From Buchnera aphidicola (Sipha maydis) (GTDB lineage Bacteria > Pseudomonadota > Gammaproteobacteria > Enterobacterales > Enterobacteriaceae): a DNA stretch of 64,000 nucleotides. Below are positions 23,343-47,265 of the stretch, piece by piece. The stretch's first letter is position 1. Each line of letters begins with the position of its first letter. The stretch is taken from the NCBI RefSeq assembly GCF_024029855.1, contig NZ_CP097205.1, positions 186,001 through 250,000 on the forward strand, given 5' to 3'. The translations under genes and the position numbers were made by a program. The notes under the pieces were generated by a model. That model saw only the letters and a list, made by a program, of their open reading frames with translations, had not been told where the DNA came from and made no database searches.

Positions 23343-25979
23343 ATGTATTATACAACAGAAAATATACGTCAGAAATTTTTCGAATTCTTCAAAAAAAAAA
23401 ATCATAAAATTTATCCTGGAAGTTCATTAACTATCAATGATGATCCTTCATTATTATTTACTAATGCAGGAATGAATCAATTTAAAAATATTTTTTTAGG
23501 ATATCAAACTCCTAAATATAAAAAAATTGCTAGTTTACAACATTGTTTAAGAACTGGTGGTAAACATAATGATTTAAATAACGTCGGACATACATCTCGA
23601 CATCATACTTTTTTTGAAATGTTAGGAAATTTTAGTTTTGGTAGTTATTTTAAAGAAAAAGCTATAACATATGCATGGGAATTATTAACATCTAAAAAAT
23701 GGTTTAACATTAATGCAGAAAAAATTTTAGTTACAGTTTATGCAAACGACTATGAAACATATAAAATCTGGAAAAATATTATAGGAATTGCAAAAGATAA
23801 AATTATTTTAATGCAAGATAAAAAAAAAAAATTATATACTTCAGAAAATTTTTGGATGATGGGAAAATATGGAGTTTGTGGACCATGTACTGAAATTTTT
23901 TATGATCAATGTAAAAATAATATTCAAAAAAATTTTCAAAAAAATAAAAAAAAATATAAAAATAGATTTATCGAAATATGGAATATAGTTTTCATAGAAT
24001 ATAATAAATTACCGAATAATACATTTCAAAAATTAAAAACACCTTCTGTAGATACAGGAATGGGACTAGAAAGAATTGCGACTATTTTACAAAACGTAAA
24101 ATCTAATTATGAAATAGATATTTTTAAAAAAATAATACAAAAAATAAAAACTTTAAAAACAATTAAAAAAAAAAATGATCGTGCTATACAAGTTATTGCC
24201 GATCATATTCGATCTAGTGCATTTATTATTGCAAATAATGTTTTACCATCCAACGAACATCGAGGATATATTTTAAGAAAAATAATTCGAAGAGCTATCA
24301 GATATGGAAGATCTCTTGGAATAAAAAAATGTTTTTTTTATAAATTAGTTCCAATACTAATTAAAGTTATGGGGAGTTCAAACGCTATTTTAATTAACAA
24401 ACAAAAAAAAATAGAAAATATATTAAAAAATGAAGAAATAAATTTTTCGCAAACATTAAAAAAAGGTTTAAAAATTTTAAATAAAGAGATTAAAAATACA
24501 AAAAATAAAATATTAGATGGAAAAATAGTATTTTATTTATACGACACATTAGGTTTTCCAATAGATTTAACGAAAAATATTTGTTTAGAAAACAATATTA
24601 AAATTGATAATGATGGCTTGAAAAAACAAATTGAAAAAAATAAATCGTCTATAAAAAAAAAAATGATCACAAACCAAGAAATAATAATTATACCAAACAT
24701 AAAACAGACGAAATTTGCAGGTTACAATATATTTAAAACAAAAAGTATAGTGCAATCTATTTATAGAGAGAATACATTAACAAAAAAAATAAAAAAAAAT
24801 GAAAAAGGGAAAATAATTATTGAAAAAACGCCATTTTATGCAGAATCAGGTGGTCAAATAGGAGATTCAGGTAAAATATATTCAAAAAATGGAATTTTTA
24901 AAGTATACAACACCAAAAAATATGGTAATTTTTTTATACACATAGGAAAAATAAAATCTGGAAAAATAAAAACACATGATAAAATCATAGCAGAAATAAA
25001 TATTAAAAAAAGAAAACTCATAGAAAAAAATCATACATCTATACACTTACTACATTCAGGATTAAGAAAAATATTAGGAAAACATATTTCTCAAAAAGGT
25101 TCTTTAATCAATGATAAAAAAATTAGATTTGATTTTTCACATTACAAACCTTTAACGTTAAAACAAATTTATAAAATTGAAAAATTTGTTAATAATATCA
25201 TACATAAAAATATTAAAATTAAAAGTTTTTTTATAAAATTTAAAGAAGCTAAAGAAAAAAAAATCAGGTTTTTGCCTAATAAAATATATAAAAAAAAGGT
25301 TCGTGTAATTTCTATTAAAAATTTTTCTAATGAACTATGTGGTGGAACACATGTTAAAAAAACTGGTAAAATTATTATTTTTAAAATACTACATGAAAAA
25401 AATGTATCATCAGGAATTAGAAGAATTAAAGCAGTTACTTATAAAGAAGCTTTAAAAAAGAATTTTAAAACAGAGAAAAAAATTCAAAAATTAAAACAAA
25501 TAACCAAATCTAAAAACTCGAATTTAATTCAGAAAATAAAAAATATTATCCAATATCAAAAAAAAATATTGAAAGAAAACAAAGAAATACAAAAAAAATA
25601 TATTTTATTGATTGCAAAAAAAATATCTAACAATGATATAAAAATATGTAAAATCCATTTTATATTTAAAATATTAAAAAACGAAGAAATAAAATATTTC
25701 CGATCTATAATAGATATACTACAAAAAAAATTTCCATCAATCATTATTATCTTAATTAATATTTCAAAAAAAAATTATCTTATTATAAAAATTAGTAAAA
25801 ATTTGCCTTTAAAAATTAAAGCAAATAGAATGATTAAAAAGATATTCAAAATAATTCCTGGAAAAGGAGGAGGAAATAAATATATATCTGAAGGAATATT
25901 AAATTCTGAAAAAAATTTAATAAACAAAATTCATAAAGTTAAAAAAAAAATTATCAAAATGGTTAAAAAAAATAAATAA
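23343..25979 (+). CDS. alaS: Alanyl-tRNA synthetase
   Basis: Charges tRNA-Ala. The 878 residues match E. coli (876). The class II catalytic core is N-terminal (LFTNAGMNQFKNIFLG, GKHNDLNNVGHTSRHHTFFEMLGNFSFG). The editing domain keeps all zinc ligands: the HTSIH pair at about 564 and 568 and CGGTH at 666-670, plus SQKGSLIND. The C-terminal C-Ala domain (PGKGGGN) is present but lysine-rich. csrA follows 143 bases later, as in E. coli. Its intact editing motif contrasts with leucyl-tRNA synthetase in this window. Confidence 0.97.
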   Translation: MYYTTENIRQKFFEFFKKKNHKIYPGSSLTINDDPSLLFTNAGMNQFKNIFLGYQTPKYKKIASLQHCLRTGGKHNDLNNVGHTSRHHTFFEMLGNFSFGSYFKEKAITYAWELLTSKKWFNINAEKILVTVYANDYETYKIWKNIIGIAKDKIILMQDKKKKLYTSENFWMMGKYGVCGPCTEIFYDQCKNNIQKNFQKNKKKYKNRFIEIWNIVFIEYNKLPNNTFQKLKTPSVDTGMGLERIATILQNVKSNYEIDIFKKIIQKIKTLKTIKKKNDRAIQVIADHIRSSAFIIANNVLPSNEHRGYILRKIIRRAIRYGRSLGIKKCFFYKLVPILIKVMGSSNAILINKQKKIENILKNEEINFSQTLKKGLKILNKEIKNTKNKILDGKIVFYLYDTLGFPIDLTKNICLENNIKIDNDGLKKQIEKNKSSIKKKMITNQEIIIIPNIKQTKFAGYNIFKTKSIVQSIYRENTLTKKIKKNEKGKIIIEKTPFYAESGGQIGDSGKIYSKNGIFKVYNTKKYGNFFIHIGKIKSGKIKTHDKIIAEINIKKRKLIEKNHTSIHLLHSGLRKILGKHISQKGSLINDKKIRFDFSHYKPLTLKQIYKIEKFVNNIIHKNIKIKSFFIKFKEAKEKKIRFLPNKIYKKKVRVISIKNFSNELCGGTHVKKTGKIIIFKILHEKNVSSGIRRIKAVTYKEALKKNFKTEKKIQKLKQITKSKNSNLIQKIKNIIQYQKKILKENKEIQKKYILLIAKKISNNDIKICKIHFIFKILKNEEIKYFRSIIDILQKKFPSIIIILINISKKNYLIIKISKNLPLKIKANRMIKKIFKIIPGKGGGNKYISEGILNSEKNLINKIHKVKKKIIKMVKKNK

Positions 25980-44111: not shown

Positions 44112-44744
44112 ATGAGAACATACAATATGTCTAAAAATAATAAAAAAGGTTTTTTTTCTTTATTGCTCAGTCAAATACTGTATAACGAACCACAAGACCA
44201 AAACGAACTATTAAATTTAATTCAAGAAGCAAAAAATAATAAATTAATTCGTGATAACACATATCATATGTGTAAAAATATAATTCACATAGAAAAAAAA
44301 ATAGTTAAAAATATAATGATTCCTCGTGTAAAAATGACTTCTTTAAAAATTAAAGATAATTTAAAAACATGCTTAAAAGTAGCTAAAAAATCTTTATATT
44401 CAAGATTCCCTGTTTTTAACCAAAATAATTCTTATTTAAAAGGTTTTTTAATATCTAAAGACTTATTTAAATTTGTTGATAATTTAAAAAAAAAATTTAT
44501 CTTAAAAAAAATTCTTAAATCACCAATCATTGTTCCTGAAAGCCAAAAACTAGATAAAACATTACAAGAATTTTATTCTAAAAAAATTTATATTGCTGTT
44601 GTAGTTGACGAATTTGGAATGATTACAGGATTAATTACACTCAAAGACATTCTAAGAAAAATTTTTAAAAATATAAATAACACTAAAATCATCAAAAAAA
44701 AACATCTAAAAAATAAAAATCAAGATAATATAGATGAAAACTAA
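44112..44744 (+). CDS. corC: CorC/YbeX family CBS protein, C-terminal domain missing
   Basis: CBS-pair protein linked to Mg/Co handling and, in recent work, ribosome metabolism. The 210 residues compare with 292 in E. coli. The N-terminal signature NKKGFFSLLLSQ is intact (an internal ATG at 44127 aligns better with the E. coli start). The two CBS motifs follow: NIMIPRVKM...SRFPVF and IYIAVVVDEFGMITGLITLKDIL. The protein ends right after the second CBS, so the C-terminal CorC/HlyC domain is absent. The stop overlaps the leuS start by 11 bases; lnt, usually next, is gone. Confidence 0.9.
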   Translation: MRTYNMSKNNKKGFFSLLLSQILYNEPQDQNELLNLIQEAKNNKLIRDNTYHMCKNIIHIEKKIVKNIMIPRVKMTSLKIKDNLKTCLKVAKKSLYSRFPVFNQNNSYLKGFLISKDLFKFVDNLKKKFILKKILKSPIIVPESQKLDKTLQEFYSKKIYIAVVVDEFGMITGLITLKDILRKIFKNINNTKIIKKKHLKNKNQDNIDEN

Positions 44745-47265
44745 AAAAATGAAAAAAAATTATAATCCACATAAAATTGAAAAAAAAATACAAACAAAAT
44801 GGATAAAAAAAAAAAAATTTCAAGTGTTTGAAAATAATAAAAAAAAAAAATATTACTGTGTACCAATGTTACCTTACCCATCTGGAAATTTACATATGGG
44901 ACATGTAAGGAATTATACTATTAGTGATGTAATATCTAGATACCATAGTATGTTGGGAAAAAATGTTTTACAACCAATAGGATGGGATTCTTTTGGATTA
45001 CCAGCAGAAGAGGCAGCAATAAAAAATAAAAAAAATCCAAAAGAATGGACACGAAAAAACATTAAATATATGAAAAAACAACTCAAATCTTTAGGTTTTA
45101 GTTATGATTGGAATAGAGAAATTTCTACATGTGATCCAAATTATTATAAATGGGAACAATGGTTTTTTATTAAATTATATAAAAAAAAATTGGTATATAA
45201 AAAAACTTCTTTAGTCAAATGGTGTACATACGATAAAACAGTATTAGCTAATGAACAAGTTATTAAAGGAAAATGTTGGAGATGTGATACAAAGGTTATA
45301 TTAAAAAAAATTCCTCAATGGTTTTTAAAAATTAGAAATTATGCAGAAGAATTATATCAAGGAATAAAAACATTAAAAGGATGGCCAGAAAAAGTTAAAA
45401 ATATGCAAAAAAATTGGATTGGACGATCAAAAGGAATAGAAATAAATTTAAAAATAAAAAACTCTAAAAAAAATATAAAAGTATATACAAAAAAAATACA
45501 TAGTATATTAGATGCAGAGTATATTGCTGTTTCTGTAAATAATAAAATTTTAAAAAAATTGATAAAAAATGATAAAAATATAAGAAATTTTATAAAAAAA
45601 CAACAAAAAAATTTAATCTCAACGGAAAATTTCAAAAATATTCAAAATATTGGAATGAATACGAATATTTTTGCCATTCATCCTTTTAATCAAAAAAAAC
45701 TACCTATTTGGATTGCAAATTTTGTTTCCATAAAATATGGAAATAACATTATTATTGCTTCTCCTAAACATAGTATATCTGAATTAAATTTTTGTAAAAA
45801 AAATAATATTCTTAATTTTAAGGAAAAATACAAAAAAAATTTTATAAAAAAAAATATAAATAAAACAAAAAGTTTAGTACAAAAAATATTACAGAAAATT
45901 AAAAAAAAAAAAATCGGTATAGAAACTAAAAAATACAAAATACAAGATTGGAATATTTCTCGACAAAGATATTGGGGTACTCCAATACCAATCGCTGTAA
46001 ATAAAAAAGGTCAAGAAGCTGTTATTTCTAAAAATAAATTACCTGTAATTTTTCCTGAATTACTAGATTTTCAAAATAAAAAAAAGATGAAAAAATGGAG
46101 AAAAATTACTATTAATGGTAAAAAATTTATTCGAGAAAAAGATACTTTTGATACATTCTTCGAATCTTCATGGTATTATGCGAGATATACATGTCCAAAA
46201 TTTAAAGATTCTATGATTGATCCTATTTCTTCAAAATATTGGTTACCTATTGATCAATATATAGGAGGCATTGAACATGCTACTATGCACTTAATATATT
46301 TTAGATTTTTTCATAAACTATTAAGAGATTTTAAATTAGTAAAAACCAATGAACCAGCAAAAAATTTATTATGCCAAGGAATGGTTTTATCACATGCATA
46401 TTATTTTAAAAAAAATAAAAAACGTATCTGGATTAATAAAAAAGACGTTCAATTAAAAAAAAATAAAAAAGGTAAAATTATTGCACAATCATCATTAACA
46501 AATCAAAAAATCATTTCTGCAGGAATGATCAAAATGTCAAAATCAAAAAACAATGGCATTGATCCAAACGAAATGATTAAAAAATATGGAGCAGACTCAG
46601 TTAGACTATTCATTATGTTTTCTGCTCCTGTAGAATCTGATTTATATTGGAACGAACAAGGTTTACGAGGCATGTATAGATTTCTCAATAAACTTTGGAA
46701 TTTTTGTTATTCTTATATCTCTCAATATAAAAAAAATAATAAAAAAAATTCTCTTACAAAATATAATGCAAAAAATGAAATTTTATTAAAATTAAATAAA
46801 ACAATATATCAAGTTTCACAAGACATTGAAATAAAAAAATCTTTTAATACAGCTATTGCAAAAATTATGAAATTTTTTAAATATTTTAAAAAAAATGTAT
46901 GTAAAATCGATAAAAATAATTTTTTAATAATAAAAACACTCATTACGATAATTAAATTACTAAGTCCATTTACTCCCCATTATAGTTATAAAATTTTATC
47001 AAAATTAAAAAAAATTAAATATTTTAAGATAAATAAATGGCCTAAAATGAATAAGAAATTAATTTTAAATAAAACCTGTAAGATAATTATTCAAATTAAC
47101 GGAAAATTCTGTTGTGTTTTGATAACAAAAAAAAATTTATCTAAAAAAGAAATTTTTTCTCAAATTATAAAAAAAAAAGAAATTACTAAAAAAATTCATA
47201 ACAAAAAAATTATAAAAAAATTTTTTATTCCCAAAAAAATTTTAAACTTAATTACTGAAGTCTAA
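44734..47265 (+). CDS. leuS: Leucyl-tRNA synthetase with eroded editing site
   Basis: Charges tRNA-Leu. The 843 residues compare with 860 in E. coli; the ATG at 44749 aligns exactly with the E. coli start and is a good alternative. The synthetic site is intact: MLPYPSGNLHMGHVRNY (HIGH) and KMSKSKNNGIDP. The CP1 editing domain (about 230-420) is present but its active site is not: the family TTRPDTFMG reads TKKIHSILD (252-260), and GTGAVMAVPGHDQRD reads GNNIIIASPKHSISE (336-350), losing the universal Asp. The enzyme probably charges leucine but cannot clear mischarged tRNA. It follows corC and precedes holA; lptE is missing. Confidence 0.96.
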   Translation: MKTKKMKKNYNPHKIEKKIQTKWIKKKKFQVFENNKKKKYYCVPMLPYPSGNLHMGHVRNYTISDVISRYHSMLGKNVLQPIGWDSFGLPAEEAAIKNKKNPKEWTRKNIKYMKKQLKSLGFSYDWNREISTCDPNYYKWEQWFFIKLYKKKLVYKKTSLVKWCTYDKTVLANEQVIKGKCWRCDTKVILKKIPQWFLKIRNYAEELYQGIKTLKGWPEKVKNMQKNWIGRSKGIEINLKIKNSKKNIKVYTKKIHSILDAEYIAVSVNNKILKKLIKNDKNIRNFIKKQQKNLISTENFKNIQNIGMNTNIFAIHPFNQKKLPIWIANFVSIKYGNNIIIASPKHSISELNFCKKNNILNFKEKYKKNFIKKNINKTKSLVQKILQKIKKKKIGIETKKYKIQDWNISRQRYWGTPIPIAVNKKGQEAVISKNKLPVIFPELLDFQNKKKMKKWRKITINGKKFIREKDTFDTFFESSWYYARYTCPKFKDSMIDPISSKYWLPIDQYIGGIEHATMHLIYFRFFHKLLRDFKLVKTNEPAKNLLCQGMVLSHAYYFKKNKKRIWINKKDVQLKKNKKGKIIAQSSLTNQKIISAGMIKMSKSKNNGIDPNEMIKKYGADSVRLFIMFSAPVESDLYWNEQGLRGMYRFLNKLWNFCYSYISQYKKNNKKNSLTKYNAKNEILLKLNKTIYQVSQDIEIKKSFNTAIAKIMKFFKYFKKNVCKIDKNNFLIIKTLITIIKLLSPFTPHYSYKILSKLKKIKYFKINKWPKMNKKLILNKTCKIIIQINGKFCCVLITKKNLSKKEIFSQIIKKKEITKKIHNKKIIKKFFIPKKILNLITEV

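Follow-up and report, generated by a model that had tools for sequence, protein, structure and literature searches.

We analyzed leuS, the leucyl-tRNA synthetase (LeuRS) gene of Buchnera aphidicola (Sipha maydis), in a 64,000-nucleotide stretch of DNA (the window, C1:186001-250000, with a G+C content of 20.6%) from a single-contig genome of 462,390 bases that is 99.42% complete. Judged from its sequence, this LeuRS has kept its synthetic site, and the editing site in its CP1 domain is gone. The loss of the post-transfer editing site together with preservation of the synthetic site is well supported by alignment, and proofreading by this enzyme has likely been lost. The explanation that we favor, to which we give a probability of about 85%, is that CP1 post-transfer editing of this bacterial LeuRS was lost under relaxed selection in a reduced-genome bacterium, most likely an insect endosymbiont. 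The features on which this reading rests are the following:

44734..47265, plus strand: leuS, leucyl-tRNA synthetase, an 843-amino-acid open reading frame in a clean 843-codon frame
44893..44904, plus strand: HMGH, the HIGH signature of the synthetic site, intact
45409..45810, plus strand: CP1 editing domain PF13603, profile positions 1-134 of 185, eroded, with the C-terminal part unmatched
45487..45513, plus strand: former threonine-rich loop TTRPDTFMG, now TKKIHSILD, residues 252-260, with T248K, R249K, D251H and T252S
45739..45783, plus strand: former GTGAVMAVPGHDQRD, now GNNIIIASPKHSISE, residues 336-350, with M336I, V338S, D342S, R344S and D345E
46531..46545, plus strand: KMSKS signature of the synthetic site, intact

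The LeuRS synthetic and editing sites

The closest solved structures to the product of 44734-47265 were those of E. coli LeuRS (E ~1e-247), and Pfam assigned it the tRNA-synt_1 domain and the LeuRS editing domain PF13603 (124.6 bits, residues 226-359); a search against phage sequences added nothing. Using E. coli LeuRS (NC_000913 leuS) as the reference for residue numbers, 24 of the 25 synthetic-site residues compared are identical in the window enzyme, the sole exception being M494F. Residues M40, L41, Y43, F493, Y499, Y527, H533 and H537, which we take to form the leucine pocket, are all identical to those of E. coli. The HIGH and KMSKS signatures, the CP1 insertion and the leucine pocket residues that characterize a class Ia bacterial LeuRS were thus all found.

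In the editing site, only T247 of the threonine-rich loop is kept, and the loop positions T247, T248, R249, D251 and T252 now read T K K H S. Replacements at T248K, R249K, D251H, T252S, G255D, M336I, V338S, D342S and D345E were found relative to E. coli. Positions 247, 248, 249, 251, 252 and 345 are T, T, R, D, T and D in all 78 control LeuRSs. These controls were 80 of the 489 loci from a genome-contig scan minus two that are endosymbionts by title, L069, which keeps all six key residues, and L077, which reads T K Y N I D; their titles name mainly Pasteurellaceae, Gilliamella, Pseudoalteromonas and other Gammaproteobacteria and no Buchnera, and they are not all free-living, since gut symbionts and one Endonucleobacter are included. 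Sites that are the same in at least 77 of the 78 controls were considered invariant. The window LeuRS retains 13 of 42 such sites in the editing region (E. coli residues 232-405) versus 203 of 244 elsewhere (outside residues 224-417; Fisher p = 2.5e-11). No editing motif relocated within CP1 was seen when the translation was read by eye, and no second LeuRS-type editing domain was found in the genome, where PF13603 matches LeuRS, IleRS and ValRS alone.

Most of what an earlier note, made from the letters of this DNA, had claimed about LeuRS is borne out by these results. The sequences it reported at residues 252-260 and 336-350 are exact, the HIGH and KMSKS signatures are intact as it said, and both the alignment with E. 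coli and the PF13603 match agree with its description of a remaining CP1 domain in which D345 is Glu and T248, R249 and D251 are lost. It had named conserved editing residues elsewhere in CP1 as a finding that would overturn its view, and the reading by eye revealed none. The replacements affect the greater part of the catalytic T-loop, T252, which blocks leucine, and D345, which binds the amino group. Under the favored explanation, relaxed selection in a host-bound lineage would be the cause of the loss, and mischarged tRNA-Leu would no longer be deacylated in cis. That the lesions come instead from sequencing or assembly is hardly conceivable, given the clean 843-codon frame and lesions at the same sites in 10 other genomes of the genus, whose LeuRSs are 63-78% identical.

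With regard to the start of the gene, ATG 44749 is likelier than the first ATG, as it would yield a protein of 838 amino acids that matches the start of most relatives' proteins. The first leuS ATG (44734) overlaps the stop of an upstream open reading frame (44112-44744), which presumably corresponds to corC/ybeX.

Editing synthetases across the genus

LeuRS is present in all 11 genomes of the genus (the nine single-contig ones measure 449-474 kb), and none of them keeps all nine LeuRS editing residues that we checked. The alignment with E. coli and the genus that the earlier note had called for thus showed editing residues replaced throughout: D251, T252, M336, V338 and D342 are retained in 0 of 11, and R249 and D345 in 2 of 11 each. 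In a tree, the genus formed one clade with G202 as first branch and G205 as sister of the window; this was a quick tree of 84 rows built from non-CP1 columns under LG+G4, with uneven composition and with Shimodaira-Hasegawa-like approximate likelihood ratios (SH-aLRT) as its sole support. Most simply, the loss of the LeuRS editing site predates the diversification of the genus and was followed by more drift in the window's branch, where the window and G205 share T248K and H251 and position 252 is Gly in G205.

The derived residues could also form a rebuilt pocket in which K249, Y/H251, S252 and E345 edit with altered specificity or at a lower rate. Their fair uniformity in the genus (K249 in 9/11, S252 in 10/11 and E345 in 8/11, beside T247 in 11/11) would fit such a pocket, as would a CP1 ratio of nonsynonymous to synonymous divergence (dN/dS) that is below 1 and overlaps the ratios measured for the editing regions of IleRS and ValRS, which are intact. 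However, the further drift of the window and G205 and the occurrence of Asp, Glu or His at position 345 across the genus do not suggest a fixed new site, V338 and D342 are gone in all 11 genomes, and the uniform letters may reflect shared ancestry. We therefore consider a rebuilt pocket very unlikely.

To place the LeuRS lesions among the other editing synthetases, IleRS, ValRS, ThrRS, PheT and AlaRS were taken from the 11 genomes and their editing residues, whose roles we assume, were compared with E. coli. The one of these genes that serves as a contrast inside the window is:

23343..25979, plus strand: alaS, alanyl-tRNA synthetase, with H564, H568, C666 and H670 all kept

All 11 genomes keep T241, T242, T243, H333 and D342 of IleRS, T221, T222, R223, E225, K277, D283 and D286 of ValRS, and the 4 AlaRS residues. 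In ThrRS, H73, C182 and H186 are kept in none of the 11, D180 in 11 and H77 in 8, the window's own enzyme not being among the latter; Pfam detected no tRNA_SAD editing domain in that enzyme (612 of its 634 residues scanned). In the PheRS beta subunit, G318, E334, T354 and A356 are kept in none and H265 in all 11. ProRS measures 392-411 amino acids in 10 of the 11 genomes versus 572 in E. coli, and the gap at approximately 213-408 corresponds to the INS domain. PF04073, which comprises the ProRS INS domain and YbaK and could indicate a rescue in trans, was found in 0 of 11 genomes in a search that did not extend to DTD and AlaX. As a separate observation, the ProRS of G202, the first branch, has 578 residues and yet PF04073 is not recognized in it, so that it and its relatives offer a before-and-after pair for the INS deletion (L236-L246).

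Altogether, the organism of the window would lack 4 of 7 editing systems, those of LeuRS, ThrRS, PheRS and ProRS. The lost/kept split occurs in 11/11 genomes of the genus, or 10/11 for the ProRS deletion. The earlier note had contrasted LeuRS with AlaRS and called the loss selective; AlaRS does keep all 4 ligands, but the loss extends to ThrRS, PheRS and ProRS. We propose that the lineage has retreated to a smaller proofreading set in which IleRS, ValRS and AlaRS editing is kept and LeuRS, ThrRS, PheRS and ProRS editing lost, and the kept trio would mark the confusions that are still costly.

The rates of evolution were compared between editing and catalytic regions in the same 11 genomes. The editing/catalytic ratio of mean pairwise nonsynonymous divergence (dN) was 2.13 for LeuRS and 2.18 for ThrRS, and 1.59, 1.52 and 1.33 for IleRS, ValRS and AlaRS, respectively. 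In four pairs, dN/dS was 0.15-0.42 for LeuRS CP1 and 0.05-0.18 for the LeuRS core. CP1 thus diverges about twice as fast as the core and is still under purifying selection, so that its role is now probably that of a scaffold. The comparison of CP1 and catalytic dN/dS proposed by the earlier note accordingly gave a divided answer: the faster CP1 was found, but purifying selection remains and the IleRS and ValRS values overlap. These rates fit a constraint on CP1 that has been relaxed but has not ceased; alone they do not prove that editing is lost, so the case for the loss is carried by the residue replacements.

Several observations weigh against the loss of editing. T247 is retained in 11/11 and T248 in 6/11 genomes of the genus, D345 is still Asp in G199 and G200, a Glu at 345 could still bind the amino group, and PF13603 still scores 124.6 bits on the window CP1. 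The boundaries of the regions in the dN comparison were chosen by the analyst, and the higher LeuRS ratio arises in part because the LeuRS core is slower: in absolute terms, mean editing-region dN was 0.289 for LeuRS, 0.271 for ValRS and 0.226 for IleRS, and dN/dS of LeuRS CP1 overlaps that of the IleRS (0.29-0.38) and ValRS (0.21-0.39) editing regions. For PheRS, PheT still matches the B3/4 domain (6.4e-34) and its editing/catalytic dN ratio is 1.00. More generally, the interpretation is drawn from sequence rather than biochemistry. A fold model of LeuRS built from a 33-row alignment had a mean predicted local distance difference test score (pLDDT) of 78.4, with CP1 blocks at approximately 74, and its top neighbors in the PDB were whole LeuRSs, including the E. 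coli enzyme (4aq7) and the T252A mutant of that enzyme; because the rows of that alignment are mostly editing-competent relatives, the model is weak evidence that CP1 folds, and for the same reason it was set aside as proof of a dead pocket.

Order of loss in small genomes and the supply of norvaline

We then compared LeuRSs in a wider set of 76, from 67 of 198 genomes (the 30 best-scoring and 37 chosen mainly for their small size) and 9 further genus members. Of these LeuRSs, 18 retain the full set of six key residues and the other 58 are altered, any single departure counting as an alteration, even a slight one like E at 251. Retention of the invariant editing-site residues grows with genome size (Spearman 0.62 for n=76 and 0.47 for the 63 entries of at most 1 Mb), the sizes being partly rounded or those of the main contig. 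Exceptions to the trend are G172 (298 kb) and G033 (353 kb), which keep all six residues, and G008 (2.0 Mb), which keeps none. On the quick tree, the LeuRS editing state changed at least 11 times by parsimony.

LeuRS, IleRS, AlaRS and ThrRS were examined in 52 non-genus genomes of at most approximately 1 Mb (G089, whose LeuRS place is unlisted, was omitted). In LeuRS, all six sites are kept in 10/52, T247, T248, T252 and D345 together in 16/52, and T252 in 26/52; D345, lost in 9/11 of the genus, is kept in 42/52. The five IleRS sites are kept in 41/51 and D342 of that enzyme in 51/51 (the G124 IleRS was left out). C666 and H670 of AlaRS are kept in 50/50, with no match in G077 and a weak match with a 28-residue frame in G123 left uncounted. 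ThrRS C182 and H186 are both kept in 13/52; the SAD domain was undetected in the ThrRS of 18/52 genomes, which were counted as lost, misses being possible. IleRS was intact and LeuRS not in 31 of 51 genomes and the opposite occurred in 0; AlaRS was intact and ThrRS not in 37 of 50 and the opposite again in 0, the genomes being interrelated, so that p-values for the order of loss exaggerate their independence. The four enzymes show the same order of loss in these small genomes as in the genus.

That symbionts with small genomes have converged on a minimal set of proofreading enzymes, in which selection keeps AlaRS and IleRS editing and LeuRS and ThrRS editing is dispensable, seems to us about as likely as not. 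Within the genus, this reading also counts ValRS editing among the kept and PheRS and ProRS editing among the dispensable, so that a living cell could do without four of the seven editing systems examined.

Other observations were made in these genomes. The D345 kept in 42/52 (L006-L033, L199-L229) often stands without the T-loop, as if this residue had a second, structural role. In G124 (708 kb), the best match to E. coli IleRS (C1:667113-669374, in a 1052-aa frame) has 27% identity, versus 34-73% for the full-length IleRSs listed for the other 51 genomes, and this IleRS is perhaps divergent or replaced. The LeuRS (L226) and IleRS (L326) frames of G102 (258 kb) contain 19 and 17 TGA codons, respectively, and are open when TGA is read as Trp.

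The loss of editing could be compensated by a more selective synthetic site, in which case no mistranslation would follow. Some aaRSs (aminoacyl-tRNA synthetases) without editing have gained specificity, according to excerpts of PMC11415595, and position 494, which adjoins F493 of the leucine pocket, is Met in 78/78 controls and Phe in the window, and it departs from Met in 35 of 58 altered-site LeuRSs versus 2 of 18 intact ones. This position nevertheless ranks 16 of 244 by change count and M434 behaves alike, which points to general decay, and the other 24 synthetic-site residues checked are unchanged in the window LeuRS. M494 was therefore dropped as a compensatory change, being one of many co-decaying sites, and we regard compensation as quite unlikely. 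Control-invariant sites outside CP1 that change mostly in altered LeuRSs include 418, 421, 440, 462, 466, 494, 706-731 and 794; some of them may help to bring the tRNA into the editing site, or their changes reflect mere general decay.

What the predicted loss would mean for the proteome is best approached through the E. coli LeuRS mutant D345A, for which excerpts of PMC4932531 report that norvaline took the place of 0.87-1.65% of Leu in aerobic culture and of up to 8.81% in microaerobic culture, versus 0.04-0.27% in the wild type. In the same excerpts, no misincorporated isoleucine that could be traced to the mutation was detected, norvaline entered CTG sites preferentially, the fitness of the mutant was equal aerobically and lower after prolonged microaerobic culture, and 10 mM norvaline was very toxic to D345A strains alone. 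Since D345A misincorporates norvaline, isoleucine at Leu codons, which the earlier note had named together with norvaline, is not the best expectation, and mistranslation by this symbiont would depend on its norvaline supply. In leuS (44734-47262), 59 codons are for Leu, of which 44 are TTA and none is CTG.

Scarcity of norvaline might itself have permitted the loss: leuA is kept and no branched-chain transaminase was found, so no norvaline would be self-made. This would fit the presence of leuA in 11/11 genus genomes, the lack of an ilvE match in both genus genomes that were searched for it (G000, which holds the window, and G127), and the aerobic tolerance of norvaline by E. coli D345A (excerpts of PMC4932531). 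On the other hand, ilvE is present in G088 (462 kb; E 1.2e-138), whose LeuRS is eroded, whereas LeuRS is intact both in G033, where ilvE was not matched, and in G131, where ilvE is present; ThrRS and PheRS editing is also lost, though their substrates differ. The presence of ilvE was thus rejected as a predictor of LeuRS editing by G088 and G033, and substrate scarcity, doubtful as a cause, would be at most permissive. The leuA gene itself lies at G000:C1:433701-435230 and is on a chromosome-sized contig in all nine single-contig genus genomes; among the matches listed from a plasmid collection, all 12 are from Buchnera, with 62.5-63.9% identity to G000 LeuA, so that these named relatives carry leuA on a plasmid.

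Relaxed selection thus remains our favored explanation, and the pattern over the seven enzymes is more interesting than the LeuRS loss. LeuRS, IleRS and ValRS carry paralogous CP1 domains in one cell under one mutation bias, a natural experiment that brings its own controls, since IleRS and ValRS keep every editing residue checked and LeuRS has lost most. The pattern allows a test of which amino-acid confusions are intolerable to a cell. Outside CP1, the editing substrates are Ser and Gly for AlaRS, Ser for ThrRS, Tyr for PheRS, and Ala and Cys for ProRS. With the CP1 substrates of LeuRS, IleRS and ValRS used as in excerpts of PMC11295145, the costly confusions would be Ser or Gly for Ala, Val for Ile and Thr for Val, and the tolerable ones norvaline for Leu, Ser for Thr, Tyr for Phe, and Ala or Cys for Pro.

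Comparison with known systems

The CP1-less class of LeuRS, of the M. mobile type, does not fit the window enzyme, in which the CP1 domain is present. M. mobile LeuRS (3ziu, 637 aa), which we take to be without CP1, aligns as, and has the length of, a CP1-less enzyme, whereas the window LeuRS retains CP1.

Editing-site decay in host-bound bacteria is already in print, and the LeuRS loss is an expected case of it. Excerpts of PMC7373986, PMC11415595, PMC10057733 and PMC12362246 describe the decay of editing domains in the majority of host-restricted bacteria, among them symbionts that are inherited vertically, and those of PMC10057733 add that many aaRSs per organism are affected. The degenerate editing domains of host-restricted bacteria in Melnikov et al. 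(2018, PNAS), as described in citing papers, are the same phenomenon. Two features of naturally editing-defective aaRSs, altered editing residues beside an intact synthetic site and a strongly reduced genome, were found here, and a host-restricted life is probable from the size of the genome and the kinship of its LeuA to Buchnera plasmid sequences. Buchnera LeuRS was not the subject of any of the titles and abstract openings listed on aaRS editing and mistranslation in Buchnera and other symbionts, and the seven-enzyme split of the genus was not found in the literature searched, in which Melnikov et al. (2018) is represented by its citing papers.

Compared with E. coli LeuRS (NP_415175.1; PDB 4aq7 and 3zgz), the window enzyme replaces five of six key editing residues, T247 being the sole one kept, and the tail of its CP1 is unmatched by the Pfam profile. 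It has the loss of Asp345 in CP1 in common with E. coli D345A (excerpts of PMC4932531). The tested mutant, however, carries one engineered Asp-to-Ala change, whereas the window has a natural Asp-to-Glu change together with replacement of most of the pocket.

In Mycoplasma, the editing domains of LeuRS, PheRS and ThrRS are mutated or missing (Li et al. 2011, as given in excerpts of PMC7373986, PMC10057733 and PMC4014445), and ProRS of Mollicutes is also without its cis-editing domain (excerpts of PMC4014445). The LeuRS and PheRS editing defects there were established by biochemistry and mass spectrometry (excerpts of PMC10057733), and according to excerpts of PMC7373986 no Mycoplasma genome is known in which LeuRS, PheRS and ThrRS editing are all lost. 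The two systems are alike in that bacteria with small genomes, probably host-bound in the case of the window, are hit in the same three enzymes, all three of which would have lost editing here. They differ in that Mycoplasma belongs to the Mollicutes and the organism of the window to the Gammaproteobacteria, and in that the defects are biochemical in the former and known from sequence in the latter.

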